The notes under the pieces were generated by a model, which saw nothing but the letters and a program-made list of their open reading frames with translations, was not told where the DNA came from and searched no databases. Of a stretch of DNA of 64,000 bases, positions 47,136-57,518 are shown piece by piece; positions within the stretch are counted from its first letter, which is position 1, and each line of letters opens with the position of its first letter. The position numbers were made by a program, and so were the translations under genes. This stretch comes from Sulfurovum sp. (GTDB lineage: Bacteria > Campylobacterota > Campylobacteria > Campylobacterales > Sulfurovaceae): positions 1 through 64,000 of the forward strand of contig NZ_WGDD01000058.1 of the NCBI RefSeq assembly GCF_015493435.1. Reading direction: 5' to 3'.

Positions 47136-47468
47136 ATGAAAAAAAGATTTAGTATCATCATTATGACAACCATAACAGGATTCATGCTACCAACACTTGC
47201 AATAGGTAATGACAAACTGGGTCATAGAATTTACAAAAAGAAATTGCAGAAAAAATGTGGTTTTTATGGTTCAGTATTTTCACGAAAGCATACGCAGGCC
47301 GAGTGGGAAAAGATAAAAGAACAGGGGAAATTTCAAGAGGAAACCTTGAAAATATGCCCTAAATTCGATAAAACCAAACTAAGTGAAAAACAGTGGAACG
47401 ACTTGTATGATTTTACCTACCGTTATGGCAAAGGAGGAGAGATTCCTGGTGGCTGCAATGATAAATAG
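47136..47468 (+). CDS. Small exported protein with three cysteines, function unknown
   Basis: A 110-residue protein with a signal peptide (FSIIIMTTITGFMLPTLAIG, about 5-24), so periplasmic. The mature part (about 86 residues) is basic and aromatic: KKCGFYGSVFSRKHTQAEWEK, LKICPKFD, then LYDFTYRYGKGGEIPGGC. It has no CxxCH, so it is not a c-type cytochrome, though its spacing resembles a cytochrome-like domain that has lost heme. Three cysteines could form a disulfide. It is placed in the MerR regulon by the operator directly upstream. AAGGACAAATAA precedes the ATG. No family known to me. Confidence 0.7.
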   Translation: MKKRFSIIIMTTITGFMLPTLAIGNDKLGHRIYKKKLQKKCGFYGSVFSRKHTQAEWEKIKEQGKFQEETLKICPKFDKTKLSEKQWNDLYDFTYRYGKGGEIPGGCNDK

Positions 47469-49183: not shown

Positions 49184-50629
49184 TTATATCCATCCTCTCA
49201 ACATAAGGTGCCAGTACATAGGCTTGAGCATATACAGGTCAAATGCCCACCAGAACCACCTTGGTGTTGCCGGATCAAGGAACGGGACAGTCGGTGCCAG
49301 TCCGTCGTAGTTGAATTCTGCCATGATGATCTCTCCGTATTCCACTTTCAGAGGACAAACCGTATATCCGTCAAAAATTTCCGGAAGCTTTTCACCGTTC
49401 ACCGCTGCGACAAGGTTGGCCGTCACCACCGGAGCATGGTGCCGTGCAGATCCGCCTGTCTTTCCTTTGGGGATACCGCATACATCACCTATACCGAAAA
49501 TATTCGGGTATCTTTTGTGCTGAAGCGTATACTGGTCGACTTCAAGCCAGCCTTTTGCTGACCCTTTCTGCCATCCGAGCTTTGAGTCCACAACTGCTTT
49601 GGGCGGAGACATCGGCGGTACCACATGGATGAAGTCATACTGCATGTCCACCATTTCTTTTTTGGTGATCATATCGTATTCTTCCAAATCTTTGTCGTAT
49701 TCACCTTTGACTTCATAGGTTCTTTCAAAGGTCGCTACTTTGTTGGCAACATCCATCGCTACAAGATTGTGCTTGAACTTGTTGGTGATGGTGTCGTACC
49801 AGCTTTGTACATTTTCAAGTGACTTGGCGATCGTAGGAAGACCAAAAAGTTTTCCACCGTTCGTAGCAAAGATATAGTTTGCTCCGAAGCCCTCTTTTTT
49901 CAGGTGGTCTGCACTCAGGTAGAGGATCTTCTGCGGTGCACCGCCGCATTTGATGGGAGTAGCCGGCTGTGTATAGATCGCTGTCGGCTTCTTGCCAGAT
50001 GCAGCCGCAGCTTTTAGTTCGTTAAACCATTTCCAGGTTACTTCACCCCCTTTTGTCGTACCTTTTTCAAGGTTGCTGAGGTATACACTCGAAATACCGT
50101 TGGTACCTATATCTTCTTTGGTTAACCCCTTGATCCACTCATAATGGTATACAATACCTGTTGCCACGACCATATAGTCATACGCTGCTTCTTTGCCCGC
50201 ACGTGTCACAACTTTGTTGTTGTCCGGATCGAACACAGCCACTTCATCTTTGATCCACTCCACACCGGAGGGAATGAAGTCTTTGTTTTGCTTGACAATA
50301 TCGTTATGCGTATAAAGCCCTGCCGCCATGAATACCTGTCCTGGCTGATAGAGATGTATTTCATTGGGCGCAATGATCGTGAATACTGCATTCGGCATTG
50401 CCCGGTGCAGCCTTACCAGAGCCATAATGCCCCCTGCACCGCCGCCGACAACGAGTACTTTGACTTTTTTGTCACTGCTCGGTCCAGCTTCGGCAGAGGT
50501 GGGCGTACCCATCATCATCGCTGCACCTCCCGTCAGGCCCATGACCTTCAGTGCCTCTCTTCTGCTCATTCCTTCTGCAGCGTTCAGGGCATCGTATGCG
50601 ATCTTGCTTGCTTCTATTTTTTGATTCAT
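49184..50629 (-). CDS. sqr: Tat-exported sulfide:quinone oxidoreductase
   Basis: A 481-residue flavoprotein. A Tat motif (SRREALK, residues 22-28) and a hydrophobic stretch to about 48 precede the FAD-binding VLVVGGGAGG (near 59). HLYQPGQVF near 92-100 and the tail YWHLMLRGW are SQR marks. Only two cysteines exist, C228 (PIKCGGAPQK) and C384 (GDVCGIPKGK), which match the two redox cysteines of SQR; the third cysteine of type I enzymes is absent. It would oxidise sulfide on the periplasmic face and pass electrons to quinone. It is divergent from the psr operon. A FccB-type enzyme is less likely as the C-terminal FCSD region is absent. Confidence 0.88.
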   Translation of the reverse strand: MNQKIEASKIAYDALNAAEGMSRREALKVMGLTGGAAMMMGTPTSAEAGPSSDKKVKVLVVGGGAGGIMALVRLHRAMPNAVFTIIAPNEIHLYQPGQVFMAAGLYTHNDIVKQNKDFIPSGVEWIKDEVAVFDPDNNKVVTRAGKEAAYDYMVVATGIVYHYEWIKGLTKEDIGTNGISSVYLSNLEKGTTKGGEVTWKWFNELKAAAASGKKPTAIYTQPATPIKCGGAPQKILYLSADHLKKEGFGANYIFATNGGKLFGLPTIAKSLENVQSWYDTITNKFKHNLVAMDVANKVATFERTYEVKGEYDKDLEEYDMITKKEMVDMQYDFIHVVPPMSPPKAVVDSKLGWQKGSAKGWLEVDQYTLQHKRYPNIFGIGDVCGIPKGKTGGSARHHAPVVTANLVAAVNGEKLPEIFDGYTVCPLKVEYGEIIMAEFNYDGLAPTVPFLDPATPRWFWWAFDLYMLKPMYWHLMLRGWI

Positions 50630-50786
50630 ATTGGTAAAATTCCTTATTTTATGTTTGATCTTTCATACATCGGCCGTGATCTATACTCTATCTGATCTAC
50701 AGCCTCTCTGTCACAATAATTTCCGGAAAGAGAATAGTTAAAAGAGAATAACAAATCTCTTAAATCGTACCTAAAAACACTGTTTC

Positions 50787-50833
50787 TTGATTTAAATCAT
50801 AATTATATAAGCATAAGTACTATAAAATATAAC
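50787..50833 (+). promoter_or_regulatory. FNR/CRP-like box and promoter of the psr operon
   Basis: TTGAT, TTAA, ATCAT at 50787-50800 matches the FNR consensus TTGATnnnnATCAA in nine of ten positions; its core TGATTTAAATCA is a perfect palindrome. TATAAA at 50821-50826 or TATAAC at 50828-50833 can serve as -10 box, putting the box near -40, the class II activator place. A repeated AAGAGAATA (50728-50736, 50742-50750) lies further upstream. The 272-base gap to sqr otherwise holds no gene. Confidence 0.65.
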
Positions 50834-50901
50834 GTGTTCTTATAAATAGGAGTCTTTTTCTCTTATTTAGTAAGTAATAATTTATAGAAGGAGTGTACCT
50901 G

Positions 50902-53295
50902 ATGCAGGTTGAAATATCAAGAAGAAAATTTCTTCAGGGTAGTGTTGCCTTGAGTATCGTCGGAGGAACAGCTGTAAGCACTACAAGCTTACTTTCCGGC
51001 GAACAGGAAGAGCACCATACTTTACCTGAAAACATTACCACAAAAACGGGAACAGGAAAAGCAGAGAATATACCATTTTTATGTGGAATATGTGTCAACA
51101 AATGTGCCGGTTTTGCAAGGGTTGAAAATGGAGTAATCACAAAGTTAAATCCAAATCCATACTTCCCAAAAAGCAGAAATATGCTGTGCCCGCGGGGAAA
51201 TGCGGGCATTCAAACCACGTATGATCCGGACAGACTGAAATATCCGCTTATCAGGATAGGTGAAAGAGGCGACGGAAAATATAAAAGAGTCAGCTGGGAC
51301 GAGGCTTATGAAGCCATCTTGAACGGTACTGACAAATTTAAAGGCATCAAACATATTCTCGATGAAGAGAAAGACAACCGTGCAACTATCGGCTACTGTA
51401 ACGGCGAGGGTCTTTCAAAAGAAGGCTTTGAAGTACTCGTGGGAGAAAAGATCGGTTCTCCAAACTACGTAGATGAAATCAGTATCTGTCTCGAAACAAC
51501 GCTGGGTGCCTACGTAAACACTATAGGCACATACGGTGAAGCTGATCTGAACAATGCAGACTATTTGATCATAGCGGGAGCGAACAGGGCGGAAGCCATT
51601 ATCACGCCGGATACGATGGATATGTTCAAAAGAACACAGAGAAGAGGATTGAAGACCATAGTGCTTGATCCGAGATTTACCAACACTGCCGCCAAAGCAG
51701 ACAGGTGGTATGCGGTCAATCCCGGAACTGACCTGGCTTTTGTTCTCGCATTGACATATGTCGTTATGAATGAAGCATTATATGATAAAGATTTTGTCAC
51801 AAAGCACGGTGTCGGTTTCGAAGAGTACAAAAACCATATTCTTTCCCATAAATATACGCCGGAGTGGGCGGAAAAGATCACCAATATTCCGGCAAAAGAG
51901 ATCTATAAGACCGCCAGAGAATTTATGGCGGCAGAACATCCGATCTATTATCAGGGTCGAAGAAGTGTATTTAGCAAAAATGACTTTCAGCTTCGCCGTG
52001 CCATGGCGATCTTCCAGGCGCTAAGCGGCAATCTCGACAAAAAAGGCGGTATTATTTACGGTCAGAAACTGGCACTTCCAAAAGAAGAAGTGAACTCTCC
52101 TATGTATGCCCAGGTCAAAGACAGATTTGACAAAGACGGCATAGCAATCCCCGCCCAGAAAACAGGTTCATGGATCGTATTCAGAAATATGGTACTTGAA
52201 GGCAAAGCTCCTTATCCGATAAGAGCAATGTTCATGAGAAAGCACAATCCTCTCGCAGGGGTTCCGAACACGGCCAAAACAGTTGAATTTCTGAAAAAAA
52301 TGGATTTGAATGTCATGATAGATATTCTTCCGAGTGACACTGCCATGTATGCAGATGTTATTTTGCCCGAGGCATCCTATCTTGAAAGAACCTCACCGGT
52401 TGCAAGCTACGGCTTCCTTGAACCTGCAATCGTACAGAGAAGAGCAGCGATCAAACCTCTTTTTGAAACCAAAGTTCCTGAGCAGATCTATAAAGAGCTG
52501 GCAGAGAAACTCTCAAAACCTCTTTGGGAAATCACCAAAAAGTATGATGAAGATGTACAGGATGATTTAAAAGGAAAATCAAAAGAAGAAGAGGAAAAAT
52601 ACTATAAGGCCAACGGTTTCGATTTGGCTGATGCCTGGGAAAAACCGGTTGAAGAGGCGAATAAAGAAAGAGTTGCAAAAGCATTTGGCGAAAAAGCATG
52701 GAAAACATTGGAAGAGAAAGGTGTTTTCTATCCGGAAATGGAGAAATACCACAAGCAGCTCAATCCGAATGAATTCCAGTATTATCCGGACAACAAGAAA
52801 TACTATACGACAAGAAAAGATGCTTTAAAGGTTGTCTTCAACTTTAAAAACCTGACAAAAAAAGGCGTTGATGCAATGCCGACATGGTATGACAAATGGA
52901 ATTTCAGTGTTCCTGACGGACAGTTCAGACTTGTTACCGGCCGTCATGCACAGTTCACACAAAGCGGAACGACGAACAATATGATGCTCAGAGATTTGAT
53001 CCCGACAAACTATATCTGGATCAACAGCCGGGTGGCATCCCAGAGAGGTATCAAATTTGGCGATGTGGTGGAAGTCAAAAGCAGCGTAGGCAAGATAACC
53101 ATAAAAGCCTACCCTACCGAGAAAATCGCTCCCAACCAGATCTTTATGCTTCACGGTTTTGGCGGAAGCAGTGAGAAAATGGAAATGGCATATGGCAACG
53201 GCGGAAATGATGCAGCAATTATTGAAGACAAAATAGAACCGGTTTACGGTGCTGCTGTTATGCATGAAACAAATGTAGAAATAAGGAAGGTATAA
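50902..53295 (+). CDS. psrA: Polysulfide/thiosulfate reductase catalytic subunit, copy 1
   Basis: A 797-residue molybdopterin oxidoreductase. The Tat signal (SRRKFLQGSVAL, residues 6-17) exports it folded. The [4Fe-4S] motif is C-x2-C-x3-C-x27-C (C61, C64, C68, C96). The Mo-ligand position is probably the cysteine of DEISICLETT near residue 200, as in Phs/Psr enzymes. Later parts match the MopB domain, ending in a molydopterin-dinucleotide domain (RLVTGRHAQFTQS). It reduces polysulfide or thiosulfate, or could act in reverse. The start ATG 50902 has GAAGGAG eight bases before; an upstream GTG is less likely. PsrB follows after two bases. Confidence 0.9.
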   Translation: MQVEISRRKFLQGSVALSIVGGTAVSTTSLLSGEQEEHHTLPENITTKTGTGKAENIPFLCGICVNKCAGFARVENGVITKLNPNPYFPKSRNMLCPRGNAGIQTTYDPDRLKYPLIRIGERGDGKYKRVSWDEAYEAILNGTDKFKGIKHILDEEKDNRATIGYCNGEGLSKEGFEVLVGEKIGSPNYVDEISICLETTLGAYVNTIGTYGEADLNNADYLIIAGANRAEAIITPDTMDMFKRTQRRGLKTIVLDPRFTNTAAKADRWYAVNPGTDLAFVLALTYVVMNEALYDKDFVTKHGVGFEEYKNHILSHKYTPEWAEKITNIPAKEIYKTAREFMAAEHPIYYQGRRSVFSKNDFQLRRAMAIFQALSGNLDKKGGIIYGQKLALPKEEVNSPMYAQVKDRFDKDGIAIPAQKTGSWIVFRNMVLEGKAPYPIRAMFMRKHNPLAGVPNTAKTVEFLKKMDLNVMIDILPSDTAMYADVILPEASYLERTSPVASYGFLEPAIVQRRAAIKPLFETKVPEQIYKELAEKLSKPLWEITKKYDEDVQDDLKGKSKEEEEKYYKANGFDLADAWEKPVEEANKERVAKAFGEKAWKTLEEKGVFYPEMEKYHKQLNPNEFQYYPDNKKYYTTRKDALKVVFNFKNLTKKGVDAMPTWYDKWNFSVPDGQFRLVTGRHAQFTQSGTTNNMMLRDLIPTNYIWINSRVASQRGIKFGDVVEVKSSVGKITIKAYPTEKIAPNQIFMLHGFGGSSEKMEMAYGNGGNDAAIIEDKIEPVYGAAVMHETNVEIRKV

Positions 53296-53297
53296 TC

Positions 53298-53861
53298 ATG
53301 GCTAGATACGGAATGGCGTTAGATTATAAAAACTGTATAAACTGTAGAGCATGCGAAGTAGCATGCAAAGAAGAGAATGGTGTTGAACTCGGTGCCGAAA
53401 AACACAGGATCTGGGTCGGAAGCAACAACCCGGACGGGGAATGGCCGAACCTGAGCCTCTCCTCTGCTGTATTTTTGCCAAGCCAGTGCCAACACTGCGA
53501 AGAAGCACCGTGTCAGGAAGTTTGTCCGACAAATGCAACATACTACAATGATGACGGCATTGTACTGGTTGACAGCGATAAATGCATTTTGTGTACTTAT
53601 TGCATGAATGCCTGTCCCTACGATGCCCGTTATGTAGATGAGAGAACAATGACTGTAGACAAATGTACGTTCTGTTCAGATACAAGACTCGCCCGCGGAG
53701 AAACCACTACTGCCTGCCAGGCAACCTGCCCGACAAAAGTAAGAACGTTTGGTGATCTTGACGATCCGAACAGCGAGATCAGCCAACTGCTTGAAAACAG
53801 AGAACACTTTAGTTTGAAAGCACATCTTGGTACGAAACCAAAACTATTTTATTTGAGATAA
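53298..53861 (+). CDS. psrB: Polysulfide reductase iron-sulfur subunit
   Basis: A 187-residue ferredoxin-like subunit with four [4Fe-4S] clusters. The cysteine groups are CINCRACEVACK, CQHCEEAPCQEVCP, CILCTYCMNACPY and CTFC with ATACQATCPT-type spacing (ACQATCPTK). It carries electrons between the membrane subunit and the molybdenum subunit and is carried through the Tat pathway with PsrA, as it has no signal. It begins 2 bases after psrA1 and is followed 9 bases later by psrC, so it is translated with them. It probably also serves the second PsrA. Confidence 0.95.
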   Translation: MARYGMALDYKNCINCRACEVACKEENGVELGAEKHRIWVGSNNPDGEWPNLSLSSAVFLPSQCQHCEEAPCQEVCPTNATYYNDDGIVLVDSDKCILCTYCMNACPYDARYVDERTMTVDKCTFCSDTRLARGETTTACQATCPTKVRTFGDLDDPNSEISQLLENREHFSLKAHLGTKPKLFYLR

Positions 53862-53870
53862 GGAACTGTT

Positions 53871-55034
53871 ATGATGATGAAAGACTTTATACCATTAAAA
53901 GAAAATATACATATCAACCTGAATTTTAGCATGGTCGGCAAGATCGTTGCAGCAGCTTCAGTCATACTTATCGGATTTTATCTGTTCGGAGTAGTGAATT
54001 TTTTGGAGCATGGACACCATGCCTACAATACGACAAGAGAACATCCATGGGGCTTTCTTGTATCTGCCTATGAATTTTTTGTAGCACTTTCCATGGGTAC
54101 AATCGCTATTGCCACGAGTGCTATCTTTTTTGATATCAAGGCGTTGAAACCATTGGTCAAAAGAATGCTGGTATTCGGTTTATTGGCACTTATCGCGGGG
54201 TTTGCCGTCTTTTTGTTTGAAATAGGCCACCCCATTACCATGGTCATATACACCGCACTGAGCGGACATCCGACATCGGCACTGTTCTGGCTGGGGGTAT
54301 TTTACCCGTTGACCATGCTGTTTACCGCAATTACCTATGTGCTGTACGTGAAAGGAAAAGAATCAAAAGTGTATTCAATGCTGGCACTGATATTTGCCAA
54401 TTCCTCCATACTGACAGCCGGTTCTATTTTTGGTTTGCTGAATGACAATGCGTTTGCCAGCGGTGTATTTTACCAGATAGAATTTATTGCCAGCGGAATT
54501 TTGGGAGGCATATTTCTTTTTTCCATTATTGCAAAATTTTTCATTACGACCAAAGAGTTTGAAAAAGGTGTCCTGCTGCTAAAAGGTGCTTCCATAGCAT
54601 TGATCTCACTGCTGTTGATTATGTATCTTGTAAAATTCCTGCAGGCCGTATATGGCGATGTACCGGGAAAAGTAGAAATCGTAGAACACATTTTCGCTTC
54701 TCCCAGATTTTGGTTGTTTGAAATACTTTTAGGACTGGTTTTCCCGCTTTTTGTCGCTATTTGGGGGAGTAAAGAAAAAATTGGGATGTTCTGCCTGGCA
54801 TCTGTCTTCGGACTCATCGGTTTGATGTCTGCAAGGATTAATGTCGTGGAAGCAGTTCAGATTGTACCAAAACAATTAATGAAAGTAACAGAGTACCAGC
54901 TGCCGCCATCCATCATAAGCTATACGCCGTCTATGACGGAGTGGGCCATCGGTCTTGGCGCCATCGGCATTTTTATATTTCTGCTTTTTATTGCCGAATC
55001 TGTATTGAAGCTGGACAAAAAAGACGCACATTGA
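53871..55034 (+). CDS. psrC: NrfD-type membrane subunit of polysulfide reductase
   Basis: A 387-residue protein with about nine to ten hydrophobic helices of the NrfD/PsrC family. It anchors the complex and exchanges electrons with the quinone pool near the periplasmic side. Recognisable segments include HPWGFLVSAYEFFVALSMG near the start and FEIGHPITMVIY. The start is taken as the first of three ATGs at 53871 with AAGGAACTGTT before it. It is close in length to the usual subunits (310-400). Confidence 0.92.
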   Translation: MMMKDFIPLKENIHINLNFSMVGKIVAAASVILIGFYLFGVVNFLEHGHHAYNTTREHPWGFLVSAYEFFVALSMGTIAIATSAIFFDIKALKPLVKRMLVFGLLALIAGFAVFLFEIGHPITMVIYTALSGHPTSALFWLGVFYPLTMLFTAITYVLYVKGKESKVYSMLALIFANSSILTAGSIFGLLNDNAFASGVFYQIEFIASGILGGIFLFSIIAKFFITTKEFEKGVLLLKGASIALISLLLIMYLVKFLQAVYGDVPGKVEIVEHIFASPRFWLFEILLGLVFPLFVAIWGSKEKIGMFCLASVFGLIGLMSARINVVEAVQIVPKQLMKVTEYQLPPSIISYTPSMTEWAIGLGAIGIFIFLLFIAESVLKLDKKDAH

Positions 55035-55077
55035 CAAAAGAGAACCTGTCTCTGAAAATAACACTATGCGCACAGAA

Positions 55078-55093
55078 GATACCTCAGGGTATC
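55078..55093 (+). promoter_or_regulatory. Hairpin in the psrC-psrA2 gap
   Basis: GATACC and GGTATC make a six-pair stem around TCAG in the 96-base gap. TTGACA at 55032-55037 could be the -35 box of an internal promoter, but a good -10 is not seen. The hairpin may set the level of psrA2 relative to psrABC. Confidence 0.35.
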
Positions 55094-55130
55094 CTGCAGT
55101 GAGAGACAAATAGCATTAAGTAGGAAGAAT

Positions 55131-57518
55131 ATGATGCAAAAAGAGATATCGAGAAGACGATTTCTGCAAGGCAGTGTAGCCCTAAGCGTGATTGGGGGTT
55201 CGGCCCTGGCTGAAACACACCTCCTTCCATCCGGCAAAGAACCGCTAAGCCGTATTCCGGAAAGTATCACGACCAAGACAAGTACAAAACAGGCGCAGGA
55301 AGTACCGTTTTTATGCGGCATATGTGTTAATAAATGTGCCGGCTTTGCGAGAGTGGAAGATGGCATCATTACCAAACTCGATCCAAATCCCTATTTCCCA
55401 AAATCCAGAAATATGCTGTGTGCAAGAGGAAATGCAGGTATACAGACAACCTATGATCCGGACAGACTGAAATATCCTCTCGTCAGAATAGGCAAGCGAG
55501 GTGACGGAAAATACAAACGTGTCTCCTGGGAAGAAGCCTATGATGCCATTTTGAACGGCACCCGCCTTTTCAAAGGACTGAAAGAAATCCTTGATGAGGA
55601 GAAAGACAACCGTTCTACGATCGCATACTGTAACGGAGAGGGACTCTCCAAAGAAGGCTTTGAGTCTCTTATGGGTGAAAAGATCGGTACGGTCAATTAT
55701 GTCGATGAAGTCAGTATCTGTCTTGAAACGGTGCTGGGAGGGTATTTTGCTACCATAGGTACCTATGGAGAAGCCGATCTGGGCCATGCCGATTACCTTG
55801 TCATTGCCGGAGCAAACAGGGCAGAAGCGATCATCACACCAGATACACTGGACCTGTTCAAAAGGAGTGAAGGAAGAGGATTAAAGACTATTGTTCTGGA
55901 TCCGAGGTTCACCAATACAGCAGCGAAAGCAGACCGCTGGTATGCGGTCAATCCGGGAACAGACCTGGCCTTTGTGCTGGCACTGACCCATGTTGTCCTC
56001 ACGGAGGAGTTGTATGACAAAACATTTGTTGCTTCCCATGCTGTAGGATTTGAAAGCTATAAAACACATATTCTTTCAAATAAGTATACTCCTGAATGGG
56101 CGGAAAAGATCACCAATATTCCCGCCGGGGAAATCGTTAGAACAGCCAGAGAATTCATGGCGGCCGAACATCCCATCTATTATCAGGGCAGACGAAGCGT
56201 TTTCAGCAAAAATGATTTTCAGCTGCGAAGGGCAATGGCAATTTTTCAGGGATTGAGCGGAAACCTGAACAAAAAAGGCGGTATTATCTACGGGGAACCG
56301 CTGAAACTGCCTGAAGAAGAAATATCTGCACCTATCTACAGCCAGGCCAAGGACAGGTTTGACCATGAAGGTGTTGCCATACTGTCCCAGCGTGCAGGCT
56401 CATGGATGGTCTTTCGAGACATGGTGGTCGAAAAGAAATCACCTTATCGCGTACGTGCCATGTTCATGCGCAAACACAACCCTGTCGACAGTGTTCCAGA
56501 CACAGCCAAAACCATCCGCTTTCTGGAAGGAATGGACTTGAATGTCATTATTGATATTCTTCCAAGCGACAGTGCCATGTTCGCCGATGTCATTTTGCCT
56601 GAAGCTTCCTACCTTGAAAAGACCTCACCCGTTACAAGTTACGGCTTGCTGGAACCGGCCATTGTTCAGAGAAAGGCTGCCATCAAGCCGCTTTATGAAA
56701 CGAAAGTCCCTGAACAGATATATAAAGAATTGGCCACAGTACTCTCCAAACCGCTTTTTGATATCAGTAAAAAATACGATAAAGACTTGCAGAATGAGAT
56801 CAAAAATCGTGGTGAACAGGCTGTTTATAAAGAGGACGGCTATATACTTTCCGATTTTTGGGACAAAGATGTGTCTGAAAAAAACAAAGAGCGTATGGTC
56901 AAGGCATTTGGAGAAAAAGCGTGGAAAATACTGGAAGAAAAGGGGGTATATTATCCCCATATTGAACAATACCATACCCAGCTCAACCCCAATGAATACC
57001 GCTATTACCCGGAAAACAGAAAAAAATACCATGTACAGACAGATGCATTAAAACTGATATGCGACTACAAGCATCTTGCTGCAAAAGGGGTTGACCCGAT
57101 GCCGACGTGGAAAGAGGAATACACTTTTTCTGTACCGGAAGGACAATTCAGACTGATTACCGGAAGGCATGCCCAGTTTACACAGAGTGCCACGACAAAC
57201 AATATGATGCTCAGAGACCTGATCCCTACAAACTATCTGTGGGTCAACCAAAGAGTGGCCAGGAACAGGGGAATCAAATTTGGTGATATGCTTGAAGTCA
57301 AAAGTCGTGCAGGCAAAGTAACGATCAAAGCATATCCTACTGAAAAAATAGCACCAAACCAGGTATTTATGGCACATGGTTTCGGCAGTATGAATCCGGA
57401 AATGACAATGTCATACGGCAATGGTGCCAACGATGCCATACTCCTCGAAGACATCCATGAACCGGTCTACGGTGCAGCGGTAATGAATGAAACCAATGTG
57501 GAAATACGAAAGGTTTAG
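55131..57518 (+). CDS. psrA: Polysulfide/thiosulfate reductase catalytic subunit, copy 2
   Basis: A 795-residue paralogue of the protein at 50902-53295, alike along its whole length. The Tat signal (SRRRFLQGSVALS) and the four cluster cysteines (CGICVNKC, later NMLCARGN) are kept. So are the Mo-ligand region DEVSICLETV and RRSVFSKNDFQLRRAM. Differences gather in the signal region, in about residues 600-680 and near the end. It has no second B or C gene after it, so it probably shares PsrB and PsrC. The two may differ in substrate (polysulfide, thiosulfate or tetrathionate). AGGAAGAAT precedes the ATG. Confidence 0.9.
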   Translation: MMQKEISRRRFLQGSVALSVIGGSALAETHLLPSGKEPLSRIPESITTKTSTKQAQEVPFLCGICVNKCAGFARVEDGIITKLDPNPYFPKSRNMLCARGNAGIQTTYDPDRLKYPLVRIGKRGDGKYKRVSWEEAYDAILNGTRLFKGLKEILDEEKDNRSTIAYCNGEGLSKEGFESLMGEKIGTVNYVDEVSICLETVLGGYFATIGTYGEADLGHADYLVIAGANRAEAIITPDTLDLFKRSEGRGLKTIVLDPRFTNTAAKADRWYAVNPGTDLAFVLALTHVVLTEELYDKTFVASHAVGFESYKTHILSNKYTPEWAEKITNIPAGEIVRTAREFMAAEHPIYYQGRRSVFSKNDFQLRRAMAIFQGLSGNLNKKGGIIYGEPLKLPEEEISAPIYSQAKDRFDHEGVAILSQRAGSWMVFRDMVVEKKSPYRVRAMFMRKHNPVDSVPDTAKTIRFLEGMDLNVIIDILPSDSAMFADVILPEASYLEKTSPVTSYGLLEPAIVQRKAAIKPLYETKVPEQIYKELATVLSKPLFDISKKYDKDLQNEIKNRGEQAVYKEDGYILSDFWDKDVSEKNKERMVKAFGEKAWKILEEKGVYYPHIEQYHTQLNPNEYRYYPENRKKYHVQTDALKLICDYKHLAAKGVDPMPTWKEEYTFSVPEGQFRLITGRHAQFTQSATTNNMMLRDLIPTNYLWVNQRVARNRGIKFGDMLEVKSRAGKVTIKAYPTEKIAPNQVFMAHGFGSMNPEMTMSYGNGANDAILLEDIHEPVYGAAVMNETNVEIRKV

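Follow-up and report, generated by a model that had tools for sequence, protein, structure and literature searches.

In this Sulfurovum genome, the locus psrA1-psrB-psrC-psrA2 probably specifies a single menaquinol:sulfur-compound oxidoreductase of the Psr/Phs type, membrane-bound and periplasmic, in which two catalytic subunits are interchangeable. The second of these, PsrA2, is an old lineage under strong purifying selection and not a recent duplicate, and the anchor gene psrC is a divergent replacement, a feature absent from the original prediction. The docking of both PsrAs on one PsrBC, the co-transcription of the four genes and the substrate are what we infer.

Gene content and the two catalytic subunits

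The following features are found in the window, i.e. the whole 64,000-nucleotide stretch analysed:

50772..50901 (+): conserved region upstream of psrA1, from DNA similarity to relatives; operon leader and likely promoter, RBS aaggag
50902..53295 (+): psrA1, Tat-exported Mo-bisPGD catalytic subunit, "type I" PsrA, 797 aa
53298..53861 (+): psrB, electron-transfer subunit with 4 × [4Fe-4S], 187 aa, 16 Cys, without a signal peptide of its own
53871..55034 (+): psrC (psrC*), NrfD-family membrane anchor of a divergent type, 387 aa, from Pfam NrfD and similarity breakpoints
55035..55130 (+): psrC-psrA2 gap, 96 bp, with a weak hairpin (GATACC-TCAG-GGTATC) and the psrA2 RBS gtaggaagaat
55131..57518 (+): psrA2, second Tat-exported Mo-bisPGD catalytic subunit, A2 lineage, 795 aa
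57539..58624 (-): mrp/NBP35-like P-loop ATPase, convergent, not part of the enzyme

All four psr genes are intact and lie in this order on the same (+) strand, without a chaperone gene in the operon. In most relatives, too, the mrp/NBP35-like gene marks the downstream end of the psr locus, a conserved position; upstream of psrA1, DNA similarity begins at 50772-50773 (L123, L126, L121 and L144) or at 50784 (L134). Farther upstream, the window contains a divergently transcribed gene for a flavocytochrome c/SQR-like oxidoreductase with a twin-arginine signal (49184-50629); several relatives have a 40-43% counterpart some 2 kb 5' of psrA. It also contains a gene for a small exported protein of 110 aa without a CxxCH motif (47136-47468), and similar small proteins are encoded directly 3' of psrC in the relatives L083, L085, L086, L088 and L089.

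The original prediction of two full-length molybdenum subunits with Tat signals and all cluster cysteines is borne out. Both proteins possess the twin-arginine signal SRR[KR]FLQG (SRRKFLQGS or SRRRFLQGS) and the CxxCxxxC...C cysteines of a [4Fe-4S] site (61/64/68/96 in PsrA1, 62/65/69/97 in PsrA2). C196 of PsrA1 and C197 of PsrA2 align to Cys173 of Thermus thermophilus PsrA (2vpw), which we take to be the Mo ligand, and with Tat signal, cluster site and ligand cysteine both qualify as Mo-bisPGD subunits. The Pfam families Molybdopterin and Molydop_binding score above cut-off in both, and Molybdop_Fe4S4 reaches 21.4 and 22.1, slightly below its cut-off of 22.7. Within the DMSO reductase superfamily, Pfam and NCBIfam assign the two proteins to the Psr/Phs branch. 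PsrA1 (427 bits) and PsrA2 (409 bits) both stay below the cut-off of 694 bits for the NCBIfam PhsA equivalog, so that the substrate is not readable from sequence; the DmsA/YnfE family (TIGR02166, cut-off 777.7 bits) is likewise missed, with 250 and 235 bits.

From end to end, PsrA1 shares 75% identity and 88% similarity with PsrA2, a likeness that is not due to chance. The two had been described as alike throughout, which is only approximately correct: identity per 60 columns ranges from 51% (columns 541-600) to 88%, and the most divergent stretch comprises columns 541-660 with 51-62% identity.

Ancestry of psrA2 and of the psrC segment

The search for homologues took in 78 genomes from the genus and 142 from the family, and 84,980 species were scanned in addition. 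PsrA2 belongs to a clade of four (support 97/98), formed by the window genome (G000), the Lamellibrachia satsuma symbiont MAG (G012, locus L126), Sulfurovum sp. bin30019 (G037, locus L121) and G296 (locus L141). The A2 gene lies directly 3' of psrC in all four genomes and is found without a second B in the three complete loci (window, L126 and L121), the contig of L141 ending within A2. The idea that a duplication gave rise to the pair is right as regards paralogy. A recent tandem duplicate or decaying copy would agree with the high similarity of PsrA1 and PsrA2 and with their tandem position, but a tree that unites the window genome's A1 and A2 in one clade is worse by 210 lnL (p-AU 6e-82), and the A2 of the window groups with the A2s of other genomes, which rules out a recent local duplication. 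Moreover, PsrA2 is intact, and its dN/dS is 0.061 (G012/G037), 0.045 (window/G012) and 0.040 (window/G037), with dS near saturation in the latter two pairs; an A1 pair has a similar value of 0.047. A recent or decaying copy is hardly credible on this evidence. Viral carriers of psr genes were looked for and none was found.

Against the standard psrCs of the family, the psrC of the window reaches only 31-38% identity, whereas the adjoining psrB is 80-87% identical to the psrBs that accompany them. The closest psrC found is that of G296 (59%), likewise in the order A1-B-C. In L123, whose A1 is 90% identical, DNA similarity extends from 50772 to 53876 and ends five bases inside psrC. In G012 and G037 similarity restarts at 55108, 23 bases 5' of psrA2, and continues through mrp, and in G296 it extends into psrC as far as 54515. 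Since similarity breaks at the start of psrC and again just 5' of psrA2, psrC and the gap constitute a replaced or foreign segment of approximately 53876 to 55108. G296 carries a psrC*-type operon as well as a piece with a standard psrC and A2, and the psrBs of the two are 97% identical. A gene set like that of G296 is a plausible kind of source for the psrC* segment, with strain mixing in the G296 MAG being possible; that A1-B-C* recurs in a second, independent assembly speaks against a chimera created during assembly. PsrC has the marks of an NrfD-family anchor, with a Pfam NrfD score of 55.3 bits (cut-off 25.8), 8-10 hydrophobic segments, 54 residues invariant with the standard psrCs and a predicted quinol site. 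A sequence search of PsrC against solved structures returned no match.

The hairpin and a weak promoter in the psrC-psrA2 gap had been proposed to set the ratio of PsrA1 to PsrA2, a role for which neither gives support, as they lie at or near chance level. The hairpin is weak (z -1.4 to -2.2), and hairpins following psrC are equally common in operons with a single psrA (z -1.3 to -6.4) and, the window aside, in two-A operons (z -3.1 to -8.9); they appear to mark what was formerly the 3' end of psrABC. The promoter-like site at 55031 (TTGACA-17-GAAAAT) is one of 16 matches, with 12.7 ± 3.2 matches in shuffled sequences. The gap does contain a ribosome-binding site of psrA2's own.

Subunit exchange and the probable sharing of PsrBC

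PsrB possesses 16 conserved cysteines in ferredoxin-type motifs for four [4Fe-4S] clusters and is recognised as PsrB-like. Blast searches of the window's own genome (2.16 Mb, 99.6% complete, 61 contigs, a small missing piece being possible) yield neither a second close psrB, the next PsrB-like proteins being 44% and 37% identical, nor a second PsrC-like protein. Pfam NrfD detects a single other NrfD protein in this genome, on contig C54; Pfam NrfD_2 (PF14589) has no match in it, nor in the controls. The operon on C54 (L041 5659-11528) comprises a B, the NrfD protein, a 1116-aa molybdopterin A and a TorD-like chaperone, the sole TorD/NarJ-type chaperone found in the genome. The original prediction of only one B and one C gene is thus upheld: a second psrBC that could pair with psrA2 was looked for in this assembly and not found, and within the assembly two intact A genes, as in ynfEFGH, have one B and one C as sole candidate partners. 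PsrA2 might instead pair with the B of C54, whose operon offers a B and an NrfD protein, or act as a soluble protein. This is very improbable, because the C54 B is only 42-44% identical to PsrB and belongs to an operon with its own A (only ~30% identical to PsrA) and chaperone, and because A2 adjoins psrBC wherever it is found.

Most relatives possess a plain psrA-psrB-psrC(-mrp) locus. PsrA types I and II, ~60% identical to each other, are both seen on near-identical BC. In G037 (L121 3664-6120), which also carries A2, the PsrA in slot one is of type II (90-95% identical to those of G125 and G074), yet B and C, at 97% and 89% identity, closely match the ones in G045, where PsrA is of type I. 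When 32 operons are arranged on a B+C tree, a single clade of type I PsrA is rejected (dlnL 320, p-AU 7e-32) and at least four changes are required. Furthermore, in L136 and L139 a type I PsrA is accompanied by a different B (B'', ~72%) and a third kind of C (~26%). A type I psrA followed by a B (~72% to B'') and the third NrfD-like C (~26%) is also seen in L152 and L153. In the course of evolution, then, a given kind of BC has taken up different PsrAs, and PsrAs have been combined with different BCs. Such an exchange is indirect, sequence-based support, and the best available, that one BC may serve two PsrAs. Together with the lack of an alternative B or C in the genome it lends the predicted sharing of PsrBC indirect support.

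Against sharing stands a more distant second psrA (A', ~50% identical) that follows psrA-B-C in at least nine MAG loci: A' is accompanied by its own B' (~62%) in seven of them and the contig ends inside A' in the other two, so a second A is not always B-sharing. Operons of the order psrA-B-C-A'-B' recur in MAGs of vent Campylobacterota (L123, L125, L128, L131, L132, L133, L144, L145 and L146). The B' of G045 retains 15 of the 16 cluster cysteines. In the fragment L148 the second slot is occupied by a type I psrA.

Sharing of BC had been linked to two substrates, perhaps polysulfide versus thiosulfate or tetrathionate. A specialisation of PsrA1 and PsrA2 for such different acceptors would suit two old paralogues maintained separately under purifying selection, and the divergent columns 541-660 could change substrate access. 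However, of the positions fixed within each of the A1 and A2 clades, only ten are diagnostic in telling the two apart; these differences are mostly conservative and none precedes residue 420, which leaves the Fe-S region, the Mo ligand and the conserved pocket arginine alike in A1 and A2. Both proteins, in addition, share the same enzyme as best structural match by sequence and fall below the PhsA equivalog cut-off. Different acceptors are therefore unlikely, and the diagnostic residues, none of them near the cofactor ligands, do not yield a substrate split. From these sequences a change of chemistry appears unlikely, though possible, and changes in kinetics or expression as likely. PsrA2 could also be a dosage or expression copy, the same enzyme providing more catalytic capacity or expression in another condition. 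The identical active-site residues, the separate RBS and the 96 bp gap speak for this and make it a real possibility, while 25% divergence and an ancient separate lineage exceed what dosage needs.

For the enzyme with two interchangeable catalytic subunits, which we prefer, PsrC* would accept electrons from menaquinol, and the four [4Fe-4S] clusters of PsrB would pass them to the docked PsrA, whichever one it is. PsrB, which has no signal peptide, would hitch-hike across the membrane with PsrA1 or PsrA2 by means of their twin-arginine signals; each exported AB pair would then hold one or the other before docking to PsrC*. Transcripts would probably reach psrA2 by read-through from the psrA1 promoter, with translation from its own RBS. 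The benefit would most likely lie in an additional catalytic subunit that performs the same chemistry but differs in kinetics, stability or expression; use of an entirely different substrate is less likely.

More tentatively, PsrB (with PsrC) may serve vent Campylobacterota as a generic docking module: recombination at gene borders would exchange PsrAs of different lineages on it, and would replace even the quinol-oxidising anchor. The window would then combine an A1 from one lineage, an imported psrC* (possibly with a different energy coupling) and A2, giving alternative, perhaps mixed (A1BC/A2BC) complexes. If PsrA1 and PsrA2 share one BC, the respiratory flexibility of sulfur-breathing vent bacteria would consist in part of catalytic subunits exchanged on a fixed electron-delivery module and not of whole new operons. 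The relatives (type I and II PsrA on near-identical BC, A2, A'B', psrC versus psrC*) offer a natural series for docking determinants and for anchor type versus energy conservation. Counts of psrA genes in metagenomes should be equated with separate enzymes only with caution.

Comparison with known systems

The closest parallel is the selenate reductase operon ynfEFGH(-dmsD) of E. coli and Salmonella, a paralogue of DmsABC, in which YnfE and YnfF (71% identical) are combined with one YnfG (Fe-S) and one YnfH (anchor) (PMC5203670). In Salmonella most of the work falls to YnfE, and the contribution of its paralogue YnfF to activity is small (PMC5203670). Both systems have two paralogous, Tat-exported Mo subunits on one Fe-S subunit and one anchor. 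They differ in gene order (A-A-B-C there, A-B-C-A in the window) and in type: ynfEFGH is of the DmsA/selenate type with the chaperone DmsD in the operon, whereas the window has Psr/Phs-type A subunits and an NrfD-type C.

With PsrABC/PhsABC of Wolinella, Thermus and Salmonella the locus shares the subunit set, the Tat signal, the [4Fe-4S] and Mo-Cys motifs, the 16-Cys PsrB and the NrfD anchor. It differs by its two catalytic subunits, its divergent psrC and its scores below the NCBIfam PhsA cut-off.

In the excerpt of PMC10045233 examined, the psr clusters of Sulfurovum/Sulfurimonas are given as psrA1B1C1, psrA2B2, psrA3B3C3 and psrA4B4C4, and Sulfurovum indicum is credited with four psr clusters, each psrA having at least its own psrB. 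Like the window genome, these members of the same bacterial group carry several Psr enzymes per genome; a psrA without B beside a complete psrABC, as in the window, is not noted in that excerpt. The psrA-B-C-A'-B' operons of vent Campylobacterota MAGs resemble the window in a second psrA located 3' of a single psrC, several at the same locus before mrp, but their A' is ~50% identical and has its own B' (~62%). An architecture of two A subunits on one BC is thus already known from ynfEFGH, and what makes the present locus most notable is that catalytic and membrane subunits have been exchanged on either side of a psrB that stays conserved.
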